46,468 nucleotides of DNA. Source: an uncultured Ruminococcus sp. (lineage in GTDB: Bacteria; Bacillota; Clostridia; Oscillospirales; Acutalibacteraceae). The DNA lies in NCBI GenBank assembly GCA_902802105.1, contig CADCKR010000025.1:1-46468 (forward strand), given 5' to 3'. Below are positions 8,856 through 45,113 of the stretch, one piece after another (within the stretch, counting starts at the first letter, position 1; every line of letters begins with the position of its first letter). A program made the translations under genes and the position numbers. The notes under the pieces were generated by a model. That model was not told where the DNA came from, made no database searches, and saw only the letters and a list, made by a program, of their open reading frames with translations.

Positions 8856-10286
8856 TCATTCACCGGCGCCTTTTTCCGACTGAGGAAGTGCATCCTTCTT
8901 CGGCGGCATTATCGGTATTTTTATAGTAACTGTAGTTCCCTCGTTTTCCACACTGTCAATATCAAGCGTTCCCTTATGGAGCTTTACTATCTCGTCAGCT
9001 ACAGCAAGGCCGATGCCTGAGCCTCTGACAGTCTGGTTTGCCTTATAGAATTTCTGCTTTATCTTTGGCAGGTGCTCGGCAGGTATGCCGCAGCCGTTAT
9101 CGGCGATCACGATAACGATATTATCATCAGCCTGCTCGATGCTGACGTTTACCACGCCGCCCTCGGAAGAATATTTCAGGGCATTGTCGATAATATTGAT
9201 AAACACCTGTCTCAGCCTGTTCCTGTCACCGATAACAGGCGGCAGCATCTCAGGCTCATCATATACAATGTGCTTGTTCTCGGCGTTCGCCCTCTCCCTC
9301 TGCATATAGATGGACTCATCAAGCTCTGCAAGTATATCTATCTTGTCCATGATAAGCACCATGCGGTCCTGCTGTATCCTTGAAAAGTCGAGCACCTCTT
9401 CAACAATGCCGTTGAGCCTTTCGGTTTCCTTTATGATTATGCTTATGCCCTTCTGCACGGTTTTAAGGTCACGGCAGCCGTCAAGCTGCATAGTCTCGGC
9501 CCAGCCCTTGATAGCGGTGAGCGGAGTCCTCAGCTCGTGCGACACAGAGGATATAAAGTCGTTTTTGAGCTTGTCGGCAGTACCCAGCTCACCCGCCATA
9601 TAGTTTATCGTGTCGCAAAGGTCGCCTATCTCATCATCGTAGAATTTATTTATCCGCGCCTCAAAGTCGCCCTGAGCAATGCGCTTGGCTGTCGTGCTTA
9701 TCTCCTGCACCGGCCGGACGATAGACCGCAGGAAGTATGTGCTCGAAAGGAAAATAAAGAACAGTATCACCACACCGATAAGGCAGACAAACGATATGGA
9801 AATAAATATTTTTCTGTCGGCCTCTTCAAGCGATACAACATATCTTATCGCACCGACCTGTTCGTTGTTATCATCATAAATAACTCTGGTCACGGCCATG
9901 ACATTTTCGCCGGAGCTGAGACTGCCGTGCCAGTCGGCGTATTCATCCTCGGATTTCAGCGCCGCCGTATAGTCGGGCATATTCTGCTGGTTATCAGGTG
10001 CAAAGCCCGTAGAGGTTATGACAACCCTGCCCTCCTCGTTTATGACCATCAGCTCCATAAGCTCCTTGTCAGGGAAATTCTCAACATAGACTCTTGCAGT
10101 GCTTATGAAGTCATCCTTTGAATTGAAGATATTTACCAGCTCGGAAGCACGTCCGTTCAGCACCTGGAATATTCCCCTGTAATATGAATTCTGTATCACG
10201 ATAGCAAACGCCACGACCAGAACAAAGAGGATGATCAGTATTACTCCAAAGGTATTGATCAGCCATCTTTTTGTTATACCTCTCAT
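8856..10286 (-). CDS. Membrane sensor histidine kinase
   Basis: A 476-residue two-component sensor. One transmembrane helix spans about 8-31 and a second about 160-184, flanking an extracellular domain of about 125 residues. A HAMP linker (185-235) follows, then the dimerisation and phosphoacceptor domain with SSVSHELRTPL (His250). The ATP-binding domain has DNALKY, DNGCGIP and GSGIGLAV. It lies 58 bases downstream of its OmpR-type response regulator and downstream of a lipoprotein gene, so all three are likely one signalling operon. The ligand is not predictable. Confidence 0.93.
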   Translation of the reverse strand: MRGITKRWLINTFGVILIILFVLVVAFAIVIQNSYYRGIFQVLNGRASELVNIFNSKDDFISTARVYVENFPDKELMELMVINEEGRVVITSTGFAPDNQQNMPDYTAALKSEDEYADWHGSLSSGENVMAVTRVIYDDNNEQVGAIRYVVSLEEADRKIFISISFVCLIGVVILFFIFLSSTYFLRSIVRPVQEISTTAKRIAQGDFEARINKFYDDEIGDLCDTINYMAGELGTADKLKNDFISSVSHELRTPLTAIKGWAETMQLDGCRDLKTVQKGISIIIKETERLNGIVEEVLDFSRIQQDRMVLIMDKIDILAELDESIYMQRERANAENKHIVYDEPEMLPPVIGDRNRLRQVFINIIDNALKYSSEGGVVNVSIEQADDNIVIVIADNGCGIPAEHLPKIKQKFYKANQTVRGSGIGLAVADEIVKLHKGTLDIDSVENEGTTVTIKIPIMPPKKDALPQSEKGAGE

Positions 10287-22411: not shown

Positions 22412-25400
22412 ATGAAAAAGAATGTTTTGTTCAGACGGCTTATTGCGCTTTCGGGGCTGTCTGTCTGTGCTTCTGCCGCAGGCAATACAGATTATGACAT
22501 GGTAGACTATGTATTCGACTTTAAGTATCTTAAATCAGGCTATACTGATGATCCTGATTATACTTCTACACAGAAGGACGCCGGGCTCCTTAAAACTATC
22601 ATAAAAGGTATAAGGAACTTTGAACAAAAAATTGACGTTTCAAAGTTCAGACTTAACGAGGAACAGCTCACTTCTGCGCTTCTCGCCGTAAGGGATATCG
22701 TTCCTGAACTGTTTTATGCATATACGTTCAAAATCGGAAAAACCTCTGATAACAGCAGCTTTTATTCTTACGTGTACCCTGTATATTTATATACGAACAG
22801 TGACGGAAGTCCGGATATTGCAAGAATGAAAGCTGAACTTGATGAATTCTACAGGGAAGCTGATCGTTATCTTGATCTGGTGAACGGCAGGCTCAGCAAG
22901 TATAAGGACGATTTTTCCAAGGTGATGTTCCTTCATGACGAAATAGCTCTCGACTGCCGGTATTATTATGAGAAGATGGACAGCAGCGACATGGAGGGAT
23001 ATAATAATCACGAGATGATGGTAAACAAAAGGGGAGTTTGCCGGCATTATAGTCAGATATATGTATATCTTCTTGCTCAGCTCGGCATACATACGGAAAT
23101 GATAACCACCCCTGATGAAACAAAACTCAATAACGGCCAATACGGAATAAATCACCGCTGGATAAAGGTGCTGCTTGACGGCAGCTGGTACAATATTGAT
23201 GTCACATGGGATGATGTCAGTCTTAACCAAAAGCCGGTAAACGGCAGAGTGGAGCACAGCTCTTTTCTGTTCAGTGACAACATAGCGCCTTCAATGGGTT
23301 ATTACGGCTACAAGACCATTAACCGTGCAGATAACACCAGATATGACAATGCGCCTTTCCATAATTATATCAGCAGGATGTGCAAGACGAATGCGGATAA
23401 TACGTTCGTTTATGCTATAAAGTATATGAACAAAAAGCTCCATCTTGTAAGATATGATTACAGATCCGGCGATGAAACAGTACTGCTTGACCTTACCAAA
23501 AGCAATGCATGGTATCTTGATTATGATAATATCAAGGGCAAACCTCAGATATCGCTTGAAGCTTACGGAGATATGCTCTTTTATAACACGCCTTATGAGC
23601 TTTGGCGCTATGATACGAAAACAGGCAAGAATATAAAGATAAGGAAATTCACTGATTCGGATAATCAGTATTTCGGCTTGAGAAATAAAAACGGATGGCT
23701 GTATTATTACTGTAATGATGCAGGAAAGCCGGAAGAAGCATATGAGGGCTGTATATCGGAGCTTTCAAAGCTGTCGTCAGTAATGAAAAGCATAAGCTTC
23801 CGCAAAAAGAATATGACGGTCCTGAAAGGCTCTGTAAATGATGTTTTGTATAATGTTACGCCTGCTGATTCGGCTGATTCGGAATTTAAAACTTGGGATT
23901 TTGACGATAATGCTTTTGATTATTCTTTTATTAACAGCGGTGTACGTCTTACGGCAAAGCAGAAGGGAAATTTTGATGTTTCGATCGAAACTTCCGGAGG
24001 TCTTAAAACAAGCTGTAAAATAACAGTAGCTGAGCCGGCATCAAAGGTCACGCTTAACAAAACAGCCATTAATATGGCTGTAGGAGAAAAGGCAGTGCTG
24101 AAAGCTTCAGTAGCTCCTGCGGGCTGCGGCGACATTGTAACATGGACGACGTCGGACAAGAGTGTAGCGTCAGTCAGCAACGGAGCAGTTACAGCAAAAA
24201 AAGCCGGTAAGGCTGTCATAAGAGCCACGACGCTTAGCGGAAAAAGAGTGAGCTGTACAGTCACTGTCAATAACGGTCCGACAGGGATCAAGCTTAACAG
24301 GACAAGCGCCGGCATATTAAAGGGCGGCACTGTCAGGCTGAGTGCGACTGTCGTTCCCGATACGGCGAGCAGCAAAAGGGTAATATGGTCATCGTCAGAC
24401 AAGAATGTTGCGGTTGTTGACAGCAGCGGGCTTGTCAGGGGCGTTGGAAAAGGCAGCGCTGTAATAACGGCAAAGACTGCTGTAAACGGCAAGACAGCAA
24501 GCTGTAAGATCACTGTAGGTACACGCATAACTGGCGTGACCCTCAGCAAAACGAAGCTCAATATAAAAAAAGGAAATAAATTTACACTGAAAGCCTATGT
24601 ATCTCCTTCTGACGCCTATGACAAGACGGTAACATGGAGCTCATCCAATAAAGCTGTAGCATCGGTTGACAGCAAGGGCACAGTAACTGCCGTGTCGAAG
24701 GGTACGGCACGCATAACCGCAAAAACCAAAAACGGAAAGACCGCAGTGTGTGTGGTAAATGTGGTAGTGCCTGTTACCAAGGTGGTGCTTAGCAAGTCGT
24801 CTGTATCAATATGGAAGGGCGCATCGGTCACACTCACATCAAAGGTGTATCCGGCATCGGCGAACCACAAGACGCTTACCTGGTCATCATCGGATAATTC
24901 TGTCGCAGTGGTTGACAAGACAGGAAAGATAACCGCCAAGGGAGCAGGCAAGGCTGTTATTACAGCTAAAGCTGCAAGCGGAGTCTATGCAAGATGTACA
25001 GTCAATGTGGTCATTCCGTCAAGAGGAGTGAATATCAGCAAAACGAGCATTGAGCTTAGTGAGGGCGAGTCGTTTACGCTTGAAGCTGCTCTTGTTCCGT
25101 CAAATTCAACCGACAGCGTTACATGGAGCAGTTCTGATACGAGCGTTGCCACGGTAAGCGGCGGTGTGGTAACTGCTGTTTCTCAGGGAACTGCCGCTAT
25201 AACGGTAAAGACATCGAGAGGCAAGACCGCCCAATGTACAGTTACCGTTGCAAAGCCGTTTGTTCCTGTCACAAGCGTAACAATTTACCCGTCATCATAT
25301 AATCTCTACAGAAATGAAACGATCGAGCTCAAGGCGGAGCGCAGACCATCGGATTCGACAGACAAAAATATCATTTGGTCATCAAGTGACCCTGAAACAG

Positions 25401-25756
25401 TAAAAATAAAGATAGAAAACAACAGGGTCTATATCATTGCGCTGAAAACAGGAACAGCCGTAATAAAAGCGCAGTCTCCCAACGGCGTTTACGGTACCTG
25501 TTCGGTAACGGTTGAAGAACCTTTGAGCGGGACCTTCAGCTTTTCAACGAACGCAGGACAGATGACGATAAAAACCTCCGGCGGCGCATTTGATATCAGA
25601 ATAGGCGATGTTTACAGAAGTCTGAACGGCGGCGAAAATACATCGTTTTACGTTGGCGACTATACATTCAATATAGCAGTATATCCTGACGGCAGCGCTT
25701 CTGTGACTGAGATCTCTGCGGACGGCTCAAAACTTATATATAACTGCAGAGGTTAA
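22412..25756 (+). CDS. Secreted transglutaminase-like protein with Big_2 repeats
   Basis: A 1114-residue exported protein. A signal peptide (MKKNVLFRR, then a hydrophobic stretch ending CASAAG) precedes a transglutaminase/protease-like domain whose predicted triad is Cys210 (NKRGVCRHYSQIY), His248 (NHRWIKV) and Asp263 (NIDVTWDD). A region of about 270 residues with Trp/Tyr-rich, DUF5050-like repeats follows. Next come six clear Big_2 immunoglobulin-like domains (each with an ITAKT or VTWSSS type core) plus one degenerate one, and a short beta-rich C-terminus. No LPxTG-type tail or membrane anchor is seen. It is probably a cell-envelope or adhesion protein; whether the triad is active is unknown. 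Confidence 0.88.
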   Translation: MKKNVLFRRLIALSGLSVCASAAGNTDYDMVDYVFDFKYLKSGYTDDPDYTSTQKDAGLLKTIIKGIRNFEQKIDVSKFRLNEEQLTSALLAVRDIVPELFYAYTFKIGKTSDNSSFYSYVYPVYLYTNSDGSPDIARMKAELDEFYREADRYLDLVNGRLSKYKDDFSKVMFLHDEIALDCRYYYEKMDSSDMEGYNNHEMMVNKRGVCRHYSQIYVYLLAQLGIHTEMITTPDETKLNNGQYGINHRWIKVLLDGSWYNIDVTWDDVSLNQKPVNGRVEHSSFLFSDNIAPSMGYYGYKTINRADNTRYDNAPFHNYISRMCKTNADNTFVYAIKYMNKKLHLVRYDYRSGDETVLLDLTKSNAWYLDYDNIKGKPQISLEAYGDMLFYNTPYELWRYDTKTGKNIKIRKFTDSDNQYFGLRNKNGWLYYYCNDAGKPEEAYEGCISELSKLSSVMKSISFRKKNMTVLKGSVNDVLYNVTPADSADSEFKTWDFDDNAFDYSFINSGVRLTAKQKGNFDVSIETSGGLKTSCKITVAEPASKVTLNKTAINMAVGEKAVLKASVAPAGCGDIVTWTTSDKSVASVSNGAVTAKKAGKAVIRATTLSGKRVSCTVTVNNGPTGIKLNRTSAGILKGGTVRLSATVVPDTASSKRVIWSSSDKNVAVVDSSGLVRGVGKGSAVITAKTAVNGKTASCKITVGTRITGVTLSKTKLNIKKGNKFTLKAYVSPSDAYDKTVTWSSSNKAVASVDSKGTVTAVSKGTARITAKTKNGKTAVCVVNVVVPVTKVVLSKSSVSIWKGASVTLTSKVYPASANHKTLTWSSSDNSVAVVDKTGKITAKGAGKAVITAKAASGVYARCTVNVVIPSRGVNISKTSIELSEGESFTLEAALVPSNSTDSVTWSSSDTSVATVSGGVVTAVSQGTAAITVKTSRGKTAQCTVTVAKPFVPVTSVTIYPSSYNLYRNETIELKAERRPSDSTDKNIIWSSSDPETVKIKIENNRVYIIALKTGTAVIKAQSPNGVYGTCSVTVEEPLSGTFSFSTNAGQMTIKTSGGAFDIRIGDVYRSLNGGENTSFYVGDYTFNIAVYPDGSASVTEISADGSKLIYNCRG

Positions 25757-30346: not shown

Positions 30347-31144
30347 TTACTCAGCAGACTTCTTTGTCTTTGAAGCTGCCAGCGCGATGCCGAGAGCTGC
30401 TGCGCTCATTACTGCGAACACAATAGCTGTTGCATTGCTGTTTTCACCTGTTTTGTAGCCGTCTTTATCGTCTCTGTTGGGGCGTACATCATTGCTTGCC
30501 TCAGACTCCGAACCGGTGCTGCTGTTATCATCAACAGGATCGCTTACATCCTCCGGCTTGCTTGACTCCTCAACAGGAGCATCGCTTTCTTCACGTGCAA
30601 TATATGCAAAAACGAATCTTGAAAGGTGAGGCACCTCTGCTGAAACTGTCTTGCCGTCTACAACGACATCATCACCCTTTGCAACATAGACAAGCTTGTC
30701 GCCCTCAAAAACCAAAATCGCATTATAGCCTGTTTCTTCGGCAGTATTGAGAGTCAGCACGGGCTTCACATCATGGATAGCAACACCGTCTGCCGTATAG
30801 AGCTCAATATCGACTGCCTGATAGCTTACGATGGAAAGACCGCTGTTGTCAAGCTCCAAAAAGCTTTTCTCAATACTACTATCCAATACAGATCTTGTCT
30901 TGAGCCTATAATCGCCCTCGGGAAGCATATCAGCAGGAAAATCAACTGTGATGGTGTCCTTAGCCGGATAGGAATTGCTGTCTATCTCTGCGCTGATGCT
31001 TACAGGCAAACCTGCTTCTGCGCTGAAATCAATGATGTTTTCACCTGAATCTCCAAGAGGCGCAGCGCTTACTGCCGCAGCACCTATTGTGACCGCAGCC
31101 GTTGCTATAGCAAGAGCAGAAAAAACTTTATGTTCAATTTTCAT
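30347..31144 (-). CDS. Secreted surface protein with KTGE-type C-terminal sorting-like tail
   Basis: A 265-residue protein. A signal peptide (MKIEHKVFSALAIATAAV, cleavage near VSAAP) is followed by about 180 residues of beta-rich domain, an acidic Ser/Asp-rich linker, and a tail with YKTGENS, a hydrophobic stretch and KTKKSAE. The tail has the layout of a sortase signal, but the motif is KTGE without the usual LPx. Three other proteins in this window share the tail type. The frame opens at ATG 31153, which abuts GGAGG; ATG 31144 lies nine bases from it and is preferred. The function of the middle domain is unknown. Confidence 0.75.
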   Translation of the reverse strand: MKIEHKVFSALAIATAAVTIGAAAVSAAPLGDSGENIIDFSAEAGLPVSISAEIDSNSYPAKDTITVDFPADMLPEGDYRLKTRSVLDSSIEKSFLELDNSGLSIVSYQAVDIELYTADGVAIHDVKPVLTLNTAEETGYNAILVFEGDKLVYVAKGDDVVVDGKTVSAEVPHLSRFVFAYIAREESDAPVEESSKPEDVSDPVDDNSSTGSESEASNDVRPNRDDKDGYKTGENSNATAIVFAVMSAAALGIALAASKTKKSAE

Positions 31145-31192
31145 TTCACTCATCCTCCAAAAAATCTTAGAACGATACTATCAACTGCGAAC

Positions 31193-31450: not shown

Positions 31451-32670
31451 TAGTGACATCCTCCCCCGCCTATAGAGGCGGGGGCTTCCCCTGTCTCAGA
31501 CGAGTTTGGTTCTCGTTCGATAGTACTGATGCACTAAGCATAAGCGAGCTAACCCCGTGTGTCCCACGGTTCTTATTTTGTTTTTATGCCAATGCTATTC
31601 TCATACCTTCGTTTCGTATGTTTACAGCAGCATTGGTATCTCTGTCGTGATGTGTATGACAGCAGGGGCAATCCCACTCTCTTACAGACAAGTCTTTTGT
31701 TTCGGGATTTTGGTATCCGCAAATACTGCATACCTGTGAGCTTGCAAAGAACTTATCTACCTTTCACACACAATCATAAGCATTGGCTATCTGCCTTGAC
31801 TGTTTATGAAGAAAATCTTTTCTTTGATTGGCAATCTTTTCATGCAGTTTTGCCACTCTGACACGCTGTTTTTCTCTGTTGATTGAACCTCTCACCATTT
31901 TTGACAGCTTTCTTTGTTCTTTTTTGAGTTTCTTTTCGGATAATCTGTAATATCTCGGAAATGCGGGACAATTTCCATTACTGTCAATGTATAATTCGTG
32001 CATCGAAAAATCCAGACCGATAAAACTCTCAAGTTCCTTTTCAGCAATTTCTTCTTCATACTCAAAAAGAACACTTGCAAAATATTTACCGCCTGCATTT
32101 TTACTTACGGTAACAGCTTTCAGTTTGTAATCATCAGGTATGTTTCTATGCTGTTTCATTTTTACAAAACCTAATTTCGGAAGTCTTATCATTCCATCAC
32201 GAACAATAATATTTCCGTTTACATAATTCGTTGTATAACTTCTTTTACTGCTCTTTTTTGACTTGAACTTAGGGAAACCCACTTTCTTATCTCTGAAAAA
32301 GTTATTATAAGCATCCTGCAAATTCATTTGTGCATTAGCAAGAGCAAGACTGTCTACTTCTTTCAGCCACTCAAATTCAGTTTTGTACTGTGCAGGAGTA
32401 TTGTTCAGCTTTTCTTTTGTTTGATTATAGTACTCTATTTTATCACCAAGCATTTTATTATAGATAAATCTGACACACCCAAATGTTTTGGCAAACAATA
32501 TTTTTTGTTCTTCATTAGGGTATATCCTGAATTGATAGGCTTTGTTCATGATGCTTCACCTCTTTATCTCAACAATAGCATAAACAGAACAGTCAGTCAA
32601 TAAAAAGTCAGCCTTACGGCTGACGGGCCATTCATCCCACCGCCTTAGAGGCGGGGGACTTCTTGCCCAT
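31451..32670. mobile_element. Decayed IS605/IS1341-type element without tnpA
   Basis: A tnpB pseudogene is flanked by GC-rich hairpins typical of IS200/IS605 ends. On the left is CCCCCGCCT-ATAG-AGGCGGGGG (31463-31484). On the right are CCGCCTTAGAGGCGG (32640-32654) and GTCAGCC-TTAC-GGCTGAC (32607-32624). There are no terminal inverted repeats or target duplications, as expected for this family. It sits about a dozen bases past the stop of the EpsG-type gene. Exact borders are not certain. Confidence 0.7.
31584..32549 (-). pseudogene. tnpB: tnpB (IS605 OrfB) with internal deletion and stop
   Basis: The N-terminal half is normal: MNKAYQFRIYPNEEQKI, GCVRFIYNKML, FPKFKSKK and the RuvC-I Asp in IGLDFSMHELYI. 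After QIANAYDCV a TGA (31766-31764) interrupts. The same frame then continues with KVDKFFASS, the zinc finger [15 protein letters not shown] and the RuvC-III segment [12 protein letters not shown], ending at 31584. The normally intervening part with the RuvC-II Glu (EDL motif) is missing, so the TGA sits at a deletion junction. The product would lack nuclease activity. The start is preceded by GAGGTGA. Confidence 0.85.
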
Positions 32671-40806: not shown

Positions 40807-40862
40807 TTGACTAAAGCGCTGCATAATGCTATAATACAGATGTTGAAGGAAAGGCTTTCAAC
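40807..40862 (+). promoter_or_regulatory. Promoter and 5'-end hairpin of tiny surface protein 1
   Basis: TTGACT (40807-40812) and TATAAT (40830-40835) are spaced by 17 bases. The predicted mRNA starts near 40842, where GTTGAA (40842-40847) pairs with TTCAAC (40857-40862). AGGAGG then precedes the start codon. The layout matches the promoters at 41471 and 45206. Confidence 0.85.
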
Positions 40863-40900
40863 ATGAACATGAGTTAATTGATTCAGGAGGATGTATTATT

Positions 40901-41137
40901 ATGAAAAAGTTCAATAAAGTTTTCTTTGCAACACTTACAACTGTTGGTGCAGCTCTTGCACTTTCTCTCTCAGCAAGCGCTTCAGGTCTCGGTCAGACAG
41001 ACCCGATCGATCCTAACGTTGATCCTGTTAAGACAGGCGACAACAGCACAGCAGCTGTTGCAGTTATCGCTACAGCAGGCGTAGCTGCTCTTGGTACAGC
41101 TATCGTTGCTACAAAGATGAAGAAGGCTTCCAAATAA
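40901..41137 (+). CDS. Tiny secreted protein 1 with KTGD-type sorting-like tail
   Basis: A 78-residue protein made almost only of targeting signals. A signal peptide (about 1-27, ending ASA) is followed by about 18 residues (start SGLGQTDPIDPNVDPV), then KTGDNS, a hydrophobic helix (about 50-71) and KMKKASK. If both a signal peptidase and a sortase cut it, only about 18 residues would stay on the cell. A tandem paralogue lies at 41547. From KTGDN onward the two proteins are identical. A consensus promoter and its own terminator suggest high, separate expression. No known family was recognised; a structural wall peptide, signal peptide precursor or phage-receptor decoy are all guesses. Confidence 0.85.
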   Translation: MKKFNKVFFATLTTVGAALALSLSASASGLGQTDPIDPNVDPVKTGDNSTAAVAVIATAGVAALGTAIVATKMKKASK

Positions 41138-41190
41138 TCAGACCAGCTTGTTCTGATGTGTAGGAGCCGTACTTTCAGGTAGGCTTTTGA

Positions 41191-41232
41191 ATATCCCTGT
41201 CAGAGCATCATCTCCGACAGGGATATTTTTTA
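41191..41232 (+). terminator. Intrinsic terminator of tiny surface protein 1; AT-rich gap beyond
   Basis: ATATCCCTGTC (41191-41201) pairs with GACAGGGATAT (41216-41226), followed by six T residues. From 41233 to 41470 the sequence is AT-rich and I see no gene in it. Confidence 0.9.
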
Positions 41233-41470
41233 TCCTGAAAGAGCCGCATTCTTTACAAAATATTCAGGAAATTATATCCATCAGTTATGTTTGTGAAGCA
41301 TTTATATCATACAATTTAAGATAAATATAACATAATTTTAACTTCTATTAGTGTAATTTATATAAAATATGCCGTTATTTCAGCCAAATATTTCCTTGTA
41401 AGATATACATTCTACACAATATTGATGGATAAAATTGCCTTGATTTCTAAGTTTTATTTTCAAATATTCA

Positions 41471-41524
41471 TTGACTTATAAAACTCACTGTGCTATAATA
41501 TAGTTGTTGCAAGGAGATTGCAAT
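41471..41524 (+). promoter_or_regulatory. Promoter and 5'-end hairpin of tiny surface protein 2
   Basis: TTGACT (41471-41476) and TATAAT (41494-41499) are spaced by 17 bases. GTTGCAA (41506-41512) pairs with TTGCAAT (41518-41524) exactly at the predicted mRNA start, and AGGAGG follows. The hairpin sequence differs from that of gene 1, but its position and pairing are the same. Confidence 0.85.
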
Positions 41525-41546
41525 AAATTAAGGAGGATGTATTATT

Positions 41547-41777
41547 ATGAAACTCAAGAAAACTTTCTTTGTAGCTCTTACAACTGTTGGTGCAGCACTT
41601 GCACTTTCTCTCTCAGCAAGCGCTTCCGGTCTTGGCCAGACTGATGGTAAGCCCTCAGAGGATGTTCCTAAGACAGGTGACAACAGCACAGCAGCTGTTG
41701 CAGTTATCGCTACAGCAGGCGTAGCTGCTCTTGGTACAGCTATCGTTGCTACAAAGATGAAGAAGGCTTCTAAGTAA
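41547..41777 (+). CDS. Tiny secreted protein 2 with PKTGD-type sorting-like tail
   Basis: A 76-residue paralogue of the protein at 40901. A signal peptide (cleavage near ASA26) is followed by about 17 residues (start SGLGQTDGKPSEDV), VPKTGDNS, a hydrophobic helix and KMKKASK. The VPKTG motif is closer to a classical xPxTG sortase signal than PVKTG in gene 1. The DNA at 41681-41770 is identical to 41041-41130 over 90 bases, synonymous positions included. That points to recent duplication or gene conversion, while the linker residues and leaders have diverged. Confidence 0.85.
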   Translation: MKLKKTFFVALTTVGAALALSLSASASGLGQTDGKPSEDVPKTGDNSTAAVAVIATAGVAALGTAIVATKMKKASK

Positions 41778-41808
41778 TTTATTACTTAAATCCCTGATCG
41801 GAAATGAG

Positions 41809-41840
41809 GGCGTATTCTTGTGATACGCCTTTATTTTTTT
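41809..41840 (+). terminator. Intrinsic terminator of tiny surface protein 2
   Basis: GGCGTAT (41809-41815) pairs with ATACGCC (41823-41829), followed by a T-rich tract. It lies 28 bases ahead of the lipoprotein start, so that gene may depend on read-through or on a weak TTGTGA/TATATT promoter overlapping the hairpin. Confidence 0.8.
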
Positions 41841-41867: not shown

Positions 41868-43028
41868 ATGAAAAGAAAACCTATTATTTCCGCTATTATT
41901 GCTTTTATGCTTTTGATCACGCCGGCACTTTCCGGATGCTCAGGCGAAACATCAAAAACCGAACCTATCAACCCGCTTATCCCGGTTGCATCTGATGCAG
42001 ATACCTCTGAACCCTCAGCGCAGACAAGCACCGATACTCCGCAAACAAGCACCGATACTCCGCAGACAAGCACTGATACTCCGCAAACAAGCACCGATAC
42101 TCCGCAGACAAGCACCGATACTCCGCAGACAAGCACCGATACTCCGCAGACAAGCACCGATACTCCGCAGCCTTCAAAACCGGCAGAAGAGATACATCCC
42201 GCCGCATGGAAGGTCGAAGACAGCAACGGAAACTACATATATATGATGGGTTCTATCCATATCGGCGATGATTCTGTCAACTATATGCCTGACTATATTA
42301 TGGATGCATATAACGACAGCGACACCCTTACAGTCGAGCTTGACATCTCCTCTTATCTTAACGATTCATCAAAAGCGACCGAGGTAATGCAATACCTGAT
42401 GTACACCGACGGCTCAACTATAAAAGAGCACATATCGGAGGACACCTACAACAAAGCCGTTGAATATCTCAAAAGCTTTAATATGTATAACGAGGCCTTC
42501 GATAAAATGAGGCCGTATATGTGGGTCTCACTTATATCCAGTACGATACAGAACAACACAGAACTAAGCATCTACAACGGCGTTGATTACAAGTTCCTGC
42601 AAATGGCTCAGGCAGATAACAAGCCTGTGGTCGAGCTGGAAACATTTGCAGGGCAGTTCGATGCTATGAACAGCTTTTCAGACGCGCTTAACGACCTTAT
42701 GATTTCTCAGATGCTTGACGAAAACTACGGAACATCTATTACAGATGCTACTATGCTGCTCTATGAATGCTGGAAAAACGGCACTCTCAGCGATGAGCTG
42801 CTCATAGATACTACCTTTACTCAACAGGCAAACGACGACTATCCGCTTTATGAGGAATATATCGAAAAGCTTATTACCAACCGCAATATTACAATGGCGA
42901 AAGCAGCCGAAGAAAGCATCAATTCCGGCTCAAAAACATTTTTCATGGTCGGTTTTCTGCACTTCTGCGGTGACCAGGGCATTATTTCACTGCTTGAAAA
43001 AGACGGCTATACCGTTACACGCTTATAA
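41868..43028 (+). CDS. TraB/GumN-type lipoprotein
   Basis: A 386-residue lipoprotein with a lipobox (TPALSGCSG, Cys24). A flexible linker holds seven identical TSTDTPQ heptads, then a TraB/GumN-like domain starts with WKVEDSNGNYIYMMGSIHIG and ends with FFMVGFLHFCGDQGIISLL. In this family the GSxH-type and GxxH-type histidine motifs form a putative metal-dependent active site related to Tiki peptidases; here they appear as GSIHIG and GFLHF. Activity is inferred only. The frame opens at 41820, but the ATG at 41868 follows AGGAGC and starts a proper signal peptide. Confidence 0.85.
   Translation: MKRKPIISAIIAFMLLITPALSGCSGETSKTEPINPLIPVASDADTSEPSAQTSTDTPQTSTDTPQTSTDTPQTSTDTPQTSTDTPQTSTDTPQTSTDTPQPSKPAEEIHPAAWKVEDSNGNYIYMMGSIHIGDDSVNYMPDYIMDAYNDSDTLTVELDISSYLNDSSKATEVMQYLMYTDGSTIKEHISEDTYNKAVEYLKSFNMYNEAFDKMRPYMWVSLISSTIQNNTELSIYNGVDYKFLQMAQADNKPVVELETFAGQFDAMNSFSDALNDLMISQMLDENYGTSITDATMLLYECWKNGTLSDELLIDTTFTQQANDDYPLYEEYIEKLITNRNITMAKAAEESINSGSKTFFMVGFLHFCGDQGIISLLEKDGYTVTRL
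42021..42167. repeat. 21-bp coding minisatellite, seven copies
   Basis: Seven head-to-tail copies of a 21-base unit (CAGACAAGCACCGATACTCC plus G) encode the TSTDTPQ linker. Copies differ at only a few positions (CAG/CAA and ACC/ACT), so the array looks young and could vary in number without a frameshift. Confidence 0.9.
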
Positions 43029-43214: not shown

Positions 43215-45113
43215 TTATCTCTCAGAAGACTTTTTCTTGGAAAGCACAAGAGCTGTACCAAGAGCTGCCATTGCAACTACTGCAAATGCGATAGGCATTG
43301 CACTGTCACCTGTCTTTACAGGATTATCTGTAGGTGTAGGTGTGCCGGACTGCTCACCGCCAGGCTGTGTGCCGGGCTCATTATCAGAAGGCTCATCTGA
43401 AGGCTTGTCTGAAGGCTCGCCCTTGATCTCCTCAGGAACATACTCGCCTGTGTAGTCAACCCATTCGCCCTTGCTGTACTTATACTTTGTCTTCTCAATG
43501 CCCTTGCCCTTCTTAGCTTCAGAACCAACCTCTACAACATAGATCTGGCCAGCGTTAGCTTCTGTGTCGATGTCGAGGTCTGCTGTCTGATAGCCGATCT
43601 CACCAGCGTGGATCTGATCGTCAGACTTACCGCTGCTGAATATGATCTTCTGTGCGCCGAAGGGGATCCTTGCCTGCCATACGTCAGTACCAGGAATCTG
43701 AGTCATCTTTGTGCCCGGGAATGTAACAGGATGATTTGCAGGATTGCCGTCTGCATCAACGTCTGCTACCCAACCGTAATCGTTGCCCTCAAAGTCGTAG
43801 GTTCTGCCGTAGCCGCTCTCCCACCAATATGCATATACTTCGTCCCACTTTGTATAGCTGTTGTCGAAGTAGATGTAATCATCAATAGCTGTTGTAGTTA
43901 CTGTGGGCTCATCTGAAGGCTCCTCACCGGGCTCATCTGAAGGCTCCTCACCGGGCTCATCTGAAGGCTCCTCGCCGGGCTCATCTGAAGGCTCCTCGCC
44001 GGGCTCATCTGAAGGCTCCTCACCGGGCTCATCTGAAGGCTCATCGCTGGGCTCATCTGTAGGCTCATCTGTGGGCTCGTCAGCAAGCTCCTCTGCATTG
44101 TACTCACCGTCATAAGCTGCCCAATCACCGTCTTTGTAGGTGAACTTTGTCTTCTCAATGCCCTTGCCCTTCTTAGCTTCGGAACCATCCGGAACTATGA
44201 AGACCTGACCAGCATTTGTTTCAGCATTAAAAGCAAGATCAGCTGTCTGATAGCCTACTTCGCCTGCATGGATCTCATCATCAGACTTACCGCTGTTGAA
44301 GATGATCTTCTCAGCGCCGAAGGGGATCCTTGCCTGCCATATATCTGTTCCATCAACCTGAGTCATCTCAGTGCCGGGGAATGCAACAGGATGGTTAGTC
44401 GGATTACCGTCTGCATCTGTCTCTGCTACCCAACCATAATCATTATCCTCAAAGTCATAGGTTCTGCCGTAGCCGCTCTCCCACCAGTAAGCGTATACTT
44501 TATCCCACTTTGTATAGCTGTTGTCATAATAGATATAATCTGTTACAGCTGTTGTCTTAGCTGTGGGCTCATCTGTAGGCTCATCTGTAGGCTCATCTGT
44601 AGGCTCATCTGTAGGCTCATCTGTGGGCTCCTCTGCTGCGTCTACAACCTCAAAGCTTACAGCCCAGTAGTCATAGCCGTCTGCTGCAAAGTCGAAGTCA
44701 GCCTCATTAACTGCTGAATCAGCATTATCCTTAGCTGCATCGTCAACCTTTGTTGTGTCGAGCTTAACTACAAGCTTCTGACCCTCTGCTACTGTTGCGC
44801 TGCAGTTGGTCTGGCTGTTCTGTGTACGGTCATAGTCAGCTTCGTATACGCCCCAGCTGTATTCCCAAGCGCCGTCTGCACGGACCTTGAACTCGTATGT
44901 GCCAACTACATCTACTTCTGCCTCATATACGCCGTCGCCGTCTTCATCTGTCATAGCAACGTCGCCGCCCCAACTATTGAAGCCGCCGATCACGCCGAAA
45001 GTATGTCCTGCCGGCTCAAACTCAGCCGCAGAAGCCGGAACCATTGATACTATAGCAGTTGATCCTACAAGAGCAGCTGCAAGTGCGATTCCAAGAATTT
45101 TTCTTATCTGCAT
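43215..45113 (-). CDS. Surface starch-binding protein with two CBM26-like modules and KTGD tail
   Basis: A 632-residue secreted protein with no enzyme domain. A signal peptide (1-30) precedes an N-terminal beta-sandwich resembling SusE/SusF or CBM48-type glycan binders (GGFNSWGGDVAMTDEDGDGV, about 36-157) and an EPTD-rich linker. Two CBM26-like starch-binding modules follow (about 192-338 and 411-560). Both contain YTKWD.VYAYWWESGYGRTY, PGT.MTQ, WQARIPFGA and KIIF.SGKSDD. An EPSDEPGE linker lies between them, and a tail with NPVKTGDSAMP, a hydrophobic helix and KKKSSER ends the protein. It recalls the non-catalytic starch-adherence proteins of Ruminococcus bromii; that parallel is inferred. 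AGGAGGAAG precedes the start. Confidence 0.82.
   Translation of the reverse strand: MQIRKILGIALAAALVGSTAIVSMVPASAAEFEPAGHTFGVIGGFNSWGGDVAMTDEDGDGVYEAEVDVVGTYEFKVRADGAWEYSWGVYEADYDRTQNSQTNCSATVAEGQKLVVKLDTTKVDDAAKDNADSAVNEADFDFAADGYDYWAVSFEVVDAAEEPTDEPTDEPTDEPTDEPTDEPTAKTTAVTDYIYYDNSYTKWDKVYAYWWESGYGRTYDFEDNDYGWVAETDADGNPTNHPVAFPGTEMTQVDGTDIWQARIPFGAEKIIFNSGKSDDEIHAGEVGYQTADLAFNAETNAGQVFIVPDGSEAKKGKGIEKTKFTYKDGDWAAYDGEYNAEELADEPTDEPTDEPSDEPSDEPGEEPSDEPGEEPSDEPGEEPSDEPGEEPSDEPGEEPSDEPTVTTTAIDDYIYFDNSYTKWDEVYAYWWESGYGRTYDFEGNDYGWVADVDADGNPANHPVTFPGTKMTQIPGTDVWQARIPFGAQKIIFSSGKSDDQIHAGEIGYQTADLDIDTEANAGQIYVVEVGSEAKKGKGIEKTKYKYSKGEWVDYTGEYVPEEIKGEPSDKPSDEPSDNEPGTQPGGEQSGTPTPTDNPVKTGDSAMPIAFAVVAMAALGTALVLSKKKSSER
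43907..44080. repeat. 24-bp coding tandem repeat in the starch-binding protein linker
   Basis: Near-identical units encode (G)EEPSDEP between the two CBM26-like modules. A related array encoding EPTD repeats lies near 44563-44628. Confidence 0.8.

Follow-up and report, generated by a model that had tools for sequence, protein, structure and literature searches.

Minimal predicted surface proteins made almost entirely of export and sorting signals, encoded beside a TraB/PrgY-family gene in Ruminococcus

Two tandem genes of an uncultured Ruminococcus encode products of 78 and 76 residues that contain little besides a predicted signal peptide, a short segment and a sorting-signal-like tail. Comparison with related genomes strongly indicates that purifying selection maintains these small genes (minis, for short), that each is served by a conserved promoter of its own, and that their codon bias is like that of ribosomal protein genes. 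Our reading, to which we give a probability of about 0.45, is that they specify a cargo-less surface peptide processed by sortase. If this is true, the sorting signal would be not a mere label but nearly the whole product in these bacteria, and such a product looks highly expressed in one lineage, selected in the genus and recurrent in several others. The minis would also offer a clean test bed for the roles of the helix-tail and of a bare wall peptide, and a first candidate substrate for a chromosomal TraB/PrgY-like protease.

The window (the whole 46,468-nucleotide stretch analysed) is one contig of a 2.0 Mb genome that is 89.5% complete. The rumen is the probable source of this genome. Relatives at ten loci belong to MAGs of uncultured Ruminococcus, Clostridiales, Clostridia or Ruminococcaceae; goat rumen is named in one record, and the RUG isolate names presumably denote rumen MAGs. 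Upstream of the minis lie an ABC-transporter and glycosyltransferase cluster, a Big_2 protein gene and an ispD-like gene. Downstream lie the gene of a TraB-family lipoprotein and then that of a 632-aa surface protein with an X25-like domain. The labels ABC transporter, glycosyltransferase and ispD come from reading the translations by eye, and TraB, Big_2 and X25-like from Pfam.

A sequence-only reading had claimed two tandem frames with the parts described above, and rereading the forward strand returned both, at 40901-41137 (mini gene 1, ORF1, 78 aa) and 41547-41777 (mini gene 2, ORF2, 76 aa). The first product divides as MKKFNKVFFATLTTVGAALALSLSASA / SGLGQTDPIDPNVDPVKT / GDNSTAAVAVIATAGVAALGTAIVATKMKKASK, where the divisions are the expected signal peptidase and sortase cuts, placed by rule. 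That is, a signal peptide of residues 1-27 (40901-40981) is followed by the 18-residue mature segment SGLGQTDPIDPNVDPVKT (40982-41035) and a GD-helix-Lys tail (41036-41134). The second product follows the same plan around a different middle segment, with a signal peptide of residues 1-26 (41547-41624), the 17-residue mature segment SGLGQTDGKPSEDVPKT (41625-41675) and its own GD-helix-Lys tail (41676-41774). Signal peptidase cleavage sites follow the AxA rule, by which both predicted signal peptide ends were placed.

Each gene comes with control signals of its own, all on the forward strand, as had been proposed. Both have a predicted TTGACT-17-TATAAT promoter with an extended -10 (TG) and 11 of 12 matches (40807..40835 and 41471..41499), a hairpin in the predicted 5' UTR (40841..40863 and 41505..41525) and an AGGAGG ahead of the ATG. 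Mini gene 2 is separated from the TraB gene by a terminator that the terminator scan listed (41800..41838). The terminator-like hairpin of mini gene 1 (41190..41227) was unlisted by that scan and was found, and folded, as a 94% inverted repeat (41190-41205/41212-41227) with a T-run at 41226-41231. The identical stretch of about 90 bases noted earlier measures 92 nt (41039-41130 vs 41679-41770), and a 110-nt alignment of the two minis has 97% identity. In a scan for the architecture, with thresholds set after the genes had been seen, the window gave just these two ORFs and its 40 first-order resamplings (1.86 Mb) gave none; chance ORFs were rejected on this ground.

Two profiles, type A (window-like) and type B, were run against 64 genomes of the genus and returned the homologues expected in Ruminococcus genomes. 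Type A is present at full length in 10/64, to which G035 adds a 21-residue final fragment at a contig end. Type B, present in 11/64, is shorter, with about 8 residues from the signal peptide to TGDNS. Only G079 (4% contamination) has both types. The tandem type A pair is confined to the window genome, the other nine full-length type A genomes having one copy each; the synonymous difference between the tandem copies is 0.12 in the tail vs 0.76 across all type A pairs. Overall, the minis measure 43-95 aa with linkers of about 8-36 residues (almost none in the 43-aa one). By eye, all 11 type A genes have a Lys/Arg-containing start, a hydrophobic core and AxA. TGD is retained in 10/11 type A and 11/11 type B genes. 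The KTGD motif that had been described is present in both window minis as KTGD, and only its K varies among relatives (VTGD, DTGD and ATGD occur), apart from KTAD in one genome (G034), where the type A gene reads KTADNS; the change is one base, and the MAG has 8% contamination. Most sortases would not be expected to cut KTAD. In G028 the type B product is the 43-aa one; its ribosome site is present and its TGDNS-helix-tail is kept, and it has no signal peptide.

The control signals of type A are conserved as well. The TTGACT-17-TATAAT promoter with TG stands 75-94 nt ahead of the ATG in 11/11 genes, a 5' hairpin opens the predicted UTR in 11/11, and a stem-loop with a T-run follows each gene (related among the 10 aligned). 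The same scan found no strong promoter for type B, with 9-of-12 sites in 4/11 genes and none in seven. Common descent of the two types was sought by profile comparison, and this line of evidence was rejected: A1 matched A2 at 95.9%, but the control, A2 against five minis of another genus, reached 95.1% (A1 against these five gave 64.9%), so the match could be due to shared architecture alone.

Overall dN/dS is 0.24 for type A and 0.21 for type B. Pooled pairwise over 11 type A genes, it is low at both ends (signal peptide 0.14, TGD to the end 0.15) and highest in the linker (0.67); for type B (9 of 11 genes) signal peptide, linker and tail give 0.21, 0.17 and 0.16. Mean identity in type A (nine genomes) is 0.85 in the signal peptide, 0.40 in the displayed segment and 0.75 in the helix-tail; the displayed segment is the variable part. 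For comparison, in the same nine genomes the TraB lipoprotein scores 0.42 in its signal peptide and 0.49 in its domain, the Big_2 signal peptide 0.46 and the ispD-like product 0.59. Type B averages 0.49 in the signal peptide and 0.79 in the helix-tail. The earlier idea that a displayed or released peptide is the product fares poorly, because the type A linker is the least constrained segment. Its alternative, that the helix-tail is the active part, gains some support from the identity of 0.75 vs 0.40 and from the type B gene without a signal peptide, which keeps the tail. We regard the linker as a spacer, and the head and the helix-tail as the functional candidates. Relatives have been kept by selection beside a likely surface-protease gene, which suggests that anchoring counts for more here than the short segment being anchored.

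High and separate expression had also been proposed. The two genes do form separate units, and codon adaptation, as a proxy, points to high expression: it is 0.81 and 0.79 for the minis, 0.61-0.81 for 15 ribosomal protein genes and 0.55 for the neighbouring TraB gene. Among 2000 random 76-codon stretches of window ORFs, 1.5% and 1.9% score at least as high as the two minis. In the seven other type A genomes with both values computed, the mini reaches 0.64-0.82 and TraB 0.49-0.55; the codon table derives from the 15 ribosomal protein genes of the window genome, so values for other genomes are approximate. By this measure type A is very likely to be highly expressed. With the same table type A spans 0.55-0.82 and type B 0.38-0.48. 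Because of this low codon adaptation and its weak or absent promoters, type B may work differently from type A.

The minis carry xTGD rather than LPXTG, and their sorting signals score on both sides of the model cut-offs. With TIGR01167 (cut-off 15.9 bits) ORF2 scores 16.3 and ORF1 8.7; with PF00746 ORF2 falls below the cut-off and ORF1 is unlisted. Eight relatives were scanned with TIGR01167, of which three score 17.4-22.5, four 13.8-15.3 and one is unlisted. The window genome has three PF04203 sortase matches above the cut-off, two of class C and one class D-like; the genome is incomplete, and neither a class A nor a class B sortase turned up in it. The proposed linkage with sortase genes turned out weak: all three matches lie off this contig, and since all 64 genus genomes have sortases (PF04203), co-occurrence is uninformative. 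Match numbers range from 1 to 8 in 62 of these genomes and reach 13 in G012 and 11 in G024. The layout of the minis is that expected of a sortase substrate stripped of its cargo. On balance, we rate their processing by sortase as somewhat more likely than not.

The gene next door, which the sequence-only reading had left out, encodes a predicted lipoprotein of the TraB/PrgY/GumN family (41868..43028, +) with the lipobox LSGC and the pattern GSIH...E...E...GFLH. PF01963 (run from 41820) matches it with E 6.5e-59 and 200.4 bits vs a cut-off of 26.8, and matches three more orthologues with 176.9-214.7 bits. H137, E163, E264 and H371, which we take to be the catalytic residues of the TIKI/TraB/PrgY family, are unchanged in 56/56 rows, with two GxxH motifs and the conserved Glu present. 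The predicted structure has a mean pLDDT of 78.7 and is confident beyond the linker. A fold search of the model against the PDB gave a best match of E 0.03 and none <0.001, and a sequence search against solved structures returned nothing useful. Much of the lipoprotein linker is a 21-nt tandem repeat (TSTDTPQ) at 42019-42190.

A TraB match occurs in 55/61 genus genomes searched, with one also in G086. At 19/19 checkable loci (9 type A, 10 type B) the mini lies directly upstream of TraB on the same strand. Two loci fall outside this count: the G008 contig stops 229 nt after the mini, and the G031 mini is followed by a resolvase-like ORF, with TraB near the end of another contig. The upstream neighbour differs, being ispD-like in type A and a long surface protein in type B. 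The TraB tree has 56 rows from 55 genomes, excluding G060 (a weak partial match) and the weak second matches of other genomes. Type B forms one clade of 11 and type A 10/13 rows of another (G035 counted as A), each group lying on one side of a branch with support 100/100. In the three type A-clade rows without a mini, the ispD-like gene stands 53-70 nt ahead of TraB. As read from the tree, the adjacency is regular but reflects only one or two evolutionary events. A functional link between mini and TraB in this genus stands, in our estimate, at even odds.

The same position before TraB also points to where type A came from. Four sister-clade genomes (G002, G027, G073 and G082) encode there, 18-280 nt upstream of TraB, a protein of 241-249 aa, a relative likewise missing from the sequence-only reading. 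Its head and tail resemble those of type A, with an ectodomain between them. In G023, a fifth genome of the clade, the contig starts within such a gene, so that just the final part of the protein is present. Because head, tail and place agree, type A is most simply such a protein without its ectodomain, and we think an origin by ectodomain loss fairly probable. Long surface proteins of this sort (about 230-270 aa) share with the minis a signal peptide and a TGD-like helix-Lys tail and, unlike them, carry an ectodomain of about 150 residues; Pfam gave no match above cut-off for four of them. The xLGxS/T head is found alike in the minis and in the long proteins of the window and the sister clade. 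The long proteins of the type B clade stand before both mini and TraB, and their mean identity is 0.76 in the signal peptide, 0.83 in the tail and 0.55 in the ectodomain. Conservation of signal peptide and tail is therefore shared by minis and long proteins.

As the mechanism we favour normal export of a minimal product followed by normal handling by sortase; in type A cells the product would be abundant. The Sec system would export the mini, a step of which we are highly confident. Signal peptidase I would cut after AxA and leave a peptide of about 50 residues, N-out in the membrane. Sortase would then cut between T and G, placing an 18- or 17-residue, xLGxT-headed peptide on the wall and leaving a 33-residue helix-tail in the membrane. 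Most speculatively, the TIKI-like metalloprotease lipoprotein next door would trim or clear the wall peptide or its head; this protease possibly acts on the mini surface peptide. We think it unlikely that the minis make a self-made chromosomal surface peptide with a dedicated TIKI-like protease, TraB trimming or destroying the xLGxT-headed or signal peptide. Given the TraB neighbour, this peptide-and-protease pair is nonetheless the most interesting testable version. If true, it would mean that gut anaerobes control a wall or signal peptide in the manner of PrgY, with cargo-less sorting signals forming a distinct class of genes in the family.

Against sortase processing stand the non-LPXTG motif, the scores below cut-off (PF00746, and TIGR01167 for ORF1), the failure to find a class A or B sortase, KTAD in one type A gene (G034) and the missing signal peptide in one type B gene (G028). 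The last two genes retain the helix-tail, as would be expected of a small membrane protein that, once any signal peptide is removed, is no longer cut and whose whole TGDNS-helix-Lys tail is a partner, anchor or chaperone of TraB or of the sorting machinery; its TGD would be inherited from a sortase substrate. The helix-tail identities in A and B and the constant place beside TraB, despite differing upstream neighbours, fit this explanation too. Yet TGD is kept in all but one of the genes, similar tails occur on large proteins of this genome (for which one would normally assume anchoring), and minis of other genera have no TraB nearby, and we hold an uncut protein to be rather improbable. Less probable still is a sortase decoy or C-peptide device, in which the helix-tail keeps sortase occupied or informs a membrane sensor of sortase activity, and the short linker serves only for cutting off. 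Minimal, variable cargo beside a conserved sorting signal is what such a device would show, and a mechanism of this kind is described for Streptococcus gordonii, where a sortase C-peptide acts via a histidine kinase (Hall 2019, as cited in PMC11326707 and PMC11502775). There too, what a sorting signal leaves in the membrane is given a function, but the remnant comes from adhesins, whereas that of the minis would be a large part of the gene product. However, the histidine-kinase-like ORF of the window (8856-10286, by eye) is some 30 kb off, ribosomal-level codon bias goes far beyond a sensor's need, the conserved xLGxS/T head is left without explanation, and a test of one Streptococcus agalactiae adhesin revealed no C-peptide role (PMC11502775).

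By analogy with what is proposed for PrgY/TraB and enterococcal pheromones, the signal peptide or the mature N-terminal peptide might be a pheromone, with the TraB/PrgY-like lipoprotein degrading the cell's own copy. PrgY, a homologue of plasmid TraB with a resemblance to Tiki, is believed to break down endogenous pheromone extracellularly (PMC7117660). The neighbour's product likewise matches PF01963 with the GxxH-E-GxxH residues intact, the type A signal peptide (0.85) is far above the TraB signal peptide (0.42) and the IspD-like protein (0.59) in identity, and a strong mini promoter and a terminator precede TraB. As proof of a pheromone, signal peptide conservation is weakened because long relatives conserve theirs too (0.76). 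In addition, the variation of the linker suggests little constraint, signal peptides of type B are not conserved (0.49) and G028 lacks one, and minis beyond the genus again lack a nearby TraB. Unlike in PrgY/TraB pheromone shut-off, the neighbour is a predicted lipoprotein, and no pheromone or conjugation system and no receptor genes were noticed among the ORFs read; we consider this reading a long shot. Finally, the minis might be relics, surface protein genes that lost the ectodomain and now drift. The likely origin by ectodomain loss suits this idea, but the dN/dS ratios, the type A promoter and 5' hairpin (11/11 each) and the strong codon bias make it extremely improbable, and drifting relics were rejected on the selection ratios and codon bias.

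For the sortase-processed reading, the closest published precedent is CscD, which also qualifies the earlier statement that sortase substrates normally carry much larger ectodomains. CscD proteins are short LPxTG proteins encoded in the csc (WxL) clusters of bacteria such as lactobacilli, enterococci and listeria; they are called extremely short for LPxTG proteins, and a role in anchoring other surface proteins was suggested for them in 2006 (PMC1534035). Like the minis, they are described there as having only a signal peptide, a short variable segment and a sorting signal, and their gene adjoins genes of other surface proteins. They measure 90-140 aa, with 40-60 residues from signal peptide to LPxTG, vs 43-95 aa and about 8-36 residues in the minis, and their motif is LPxTG, that of the minis xTGD. 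The genes of the EF2685/EF0750 family (NCBIfam NF053819) lie within WxL loci (PMC2530867), and this model matches the minis only below its cut-off. No WxL or DUF916 gene was seen at a mini locus among neighbours identified by Pfam or by eye. We do not file the minis as CscD, because they are shorter, have the motif xTGD and, as far as seen, are not part of WxL loci. That a second and shorter set exists in a different family points to cargo-less anchors as a solution that recurs.

Similar genes exist outside the genus. A mixed profile had matches in 111/398 family genomes; among the matches listed, most lie in long open frames and are tails of large proteins. Twenty loci with short open frames were picked for reading (6 + 14), and 18 hold a mini of 65-90 aa, in 16 genomes and 7 genera; the script listed none at L228 and L235. 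The motif is TGD in 16 of the 18 and TGS or TGQ in two, and several have the xLGxS/T head (ATLGDST, AELGKST, ALGENT). They may be true relatives or look-alikes, which profile comparison does not tell apart. A pattern check found a TraB-like motif ORF near 0/18 in the 2.1-10.5 kb examined. Neighbours read by eye include mfd-like, foldase-like, purine nucleoside phosphorylase-like, EpsG-like and LD-carboxypeptidase-like genes. In six genomes of one other genus, g42 (L197, L220 and L223-L226), the mini comes directly after a gene that reads by eye as mfd-like, which makes a second instance of a constant neighbour.

The window itself encodes larger proteins with tails similar to those of the minis. 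The 632-aa protein beyond TraB (43215..45113, -) combines the X25-like domain with PT repeats and a VKTGDS-helix-tail. Its codon adaptation of 0.80 is the top of the 35 window ORFs of at least 150 aa tested and of ribosomal level, and a similar gene also lies beyond TraB in L039, L041 and L046. A 268-aa relative that does bear cargo (30347..31153, -) has a signal peptide, an APLGDS head and a YKTGEN-helix-tail; between it and the polysaccharide genes lies a TnpB-like ORF (31764-32549, -, by eye). Elsewhere in the window, 22412-25756 (+) encodes an exported 1114-aa protein whose N-terminal region looks by eye like a transglutaminase and which has Ig-like repeats.
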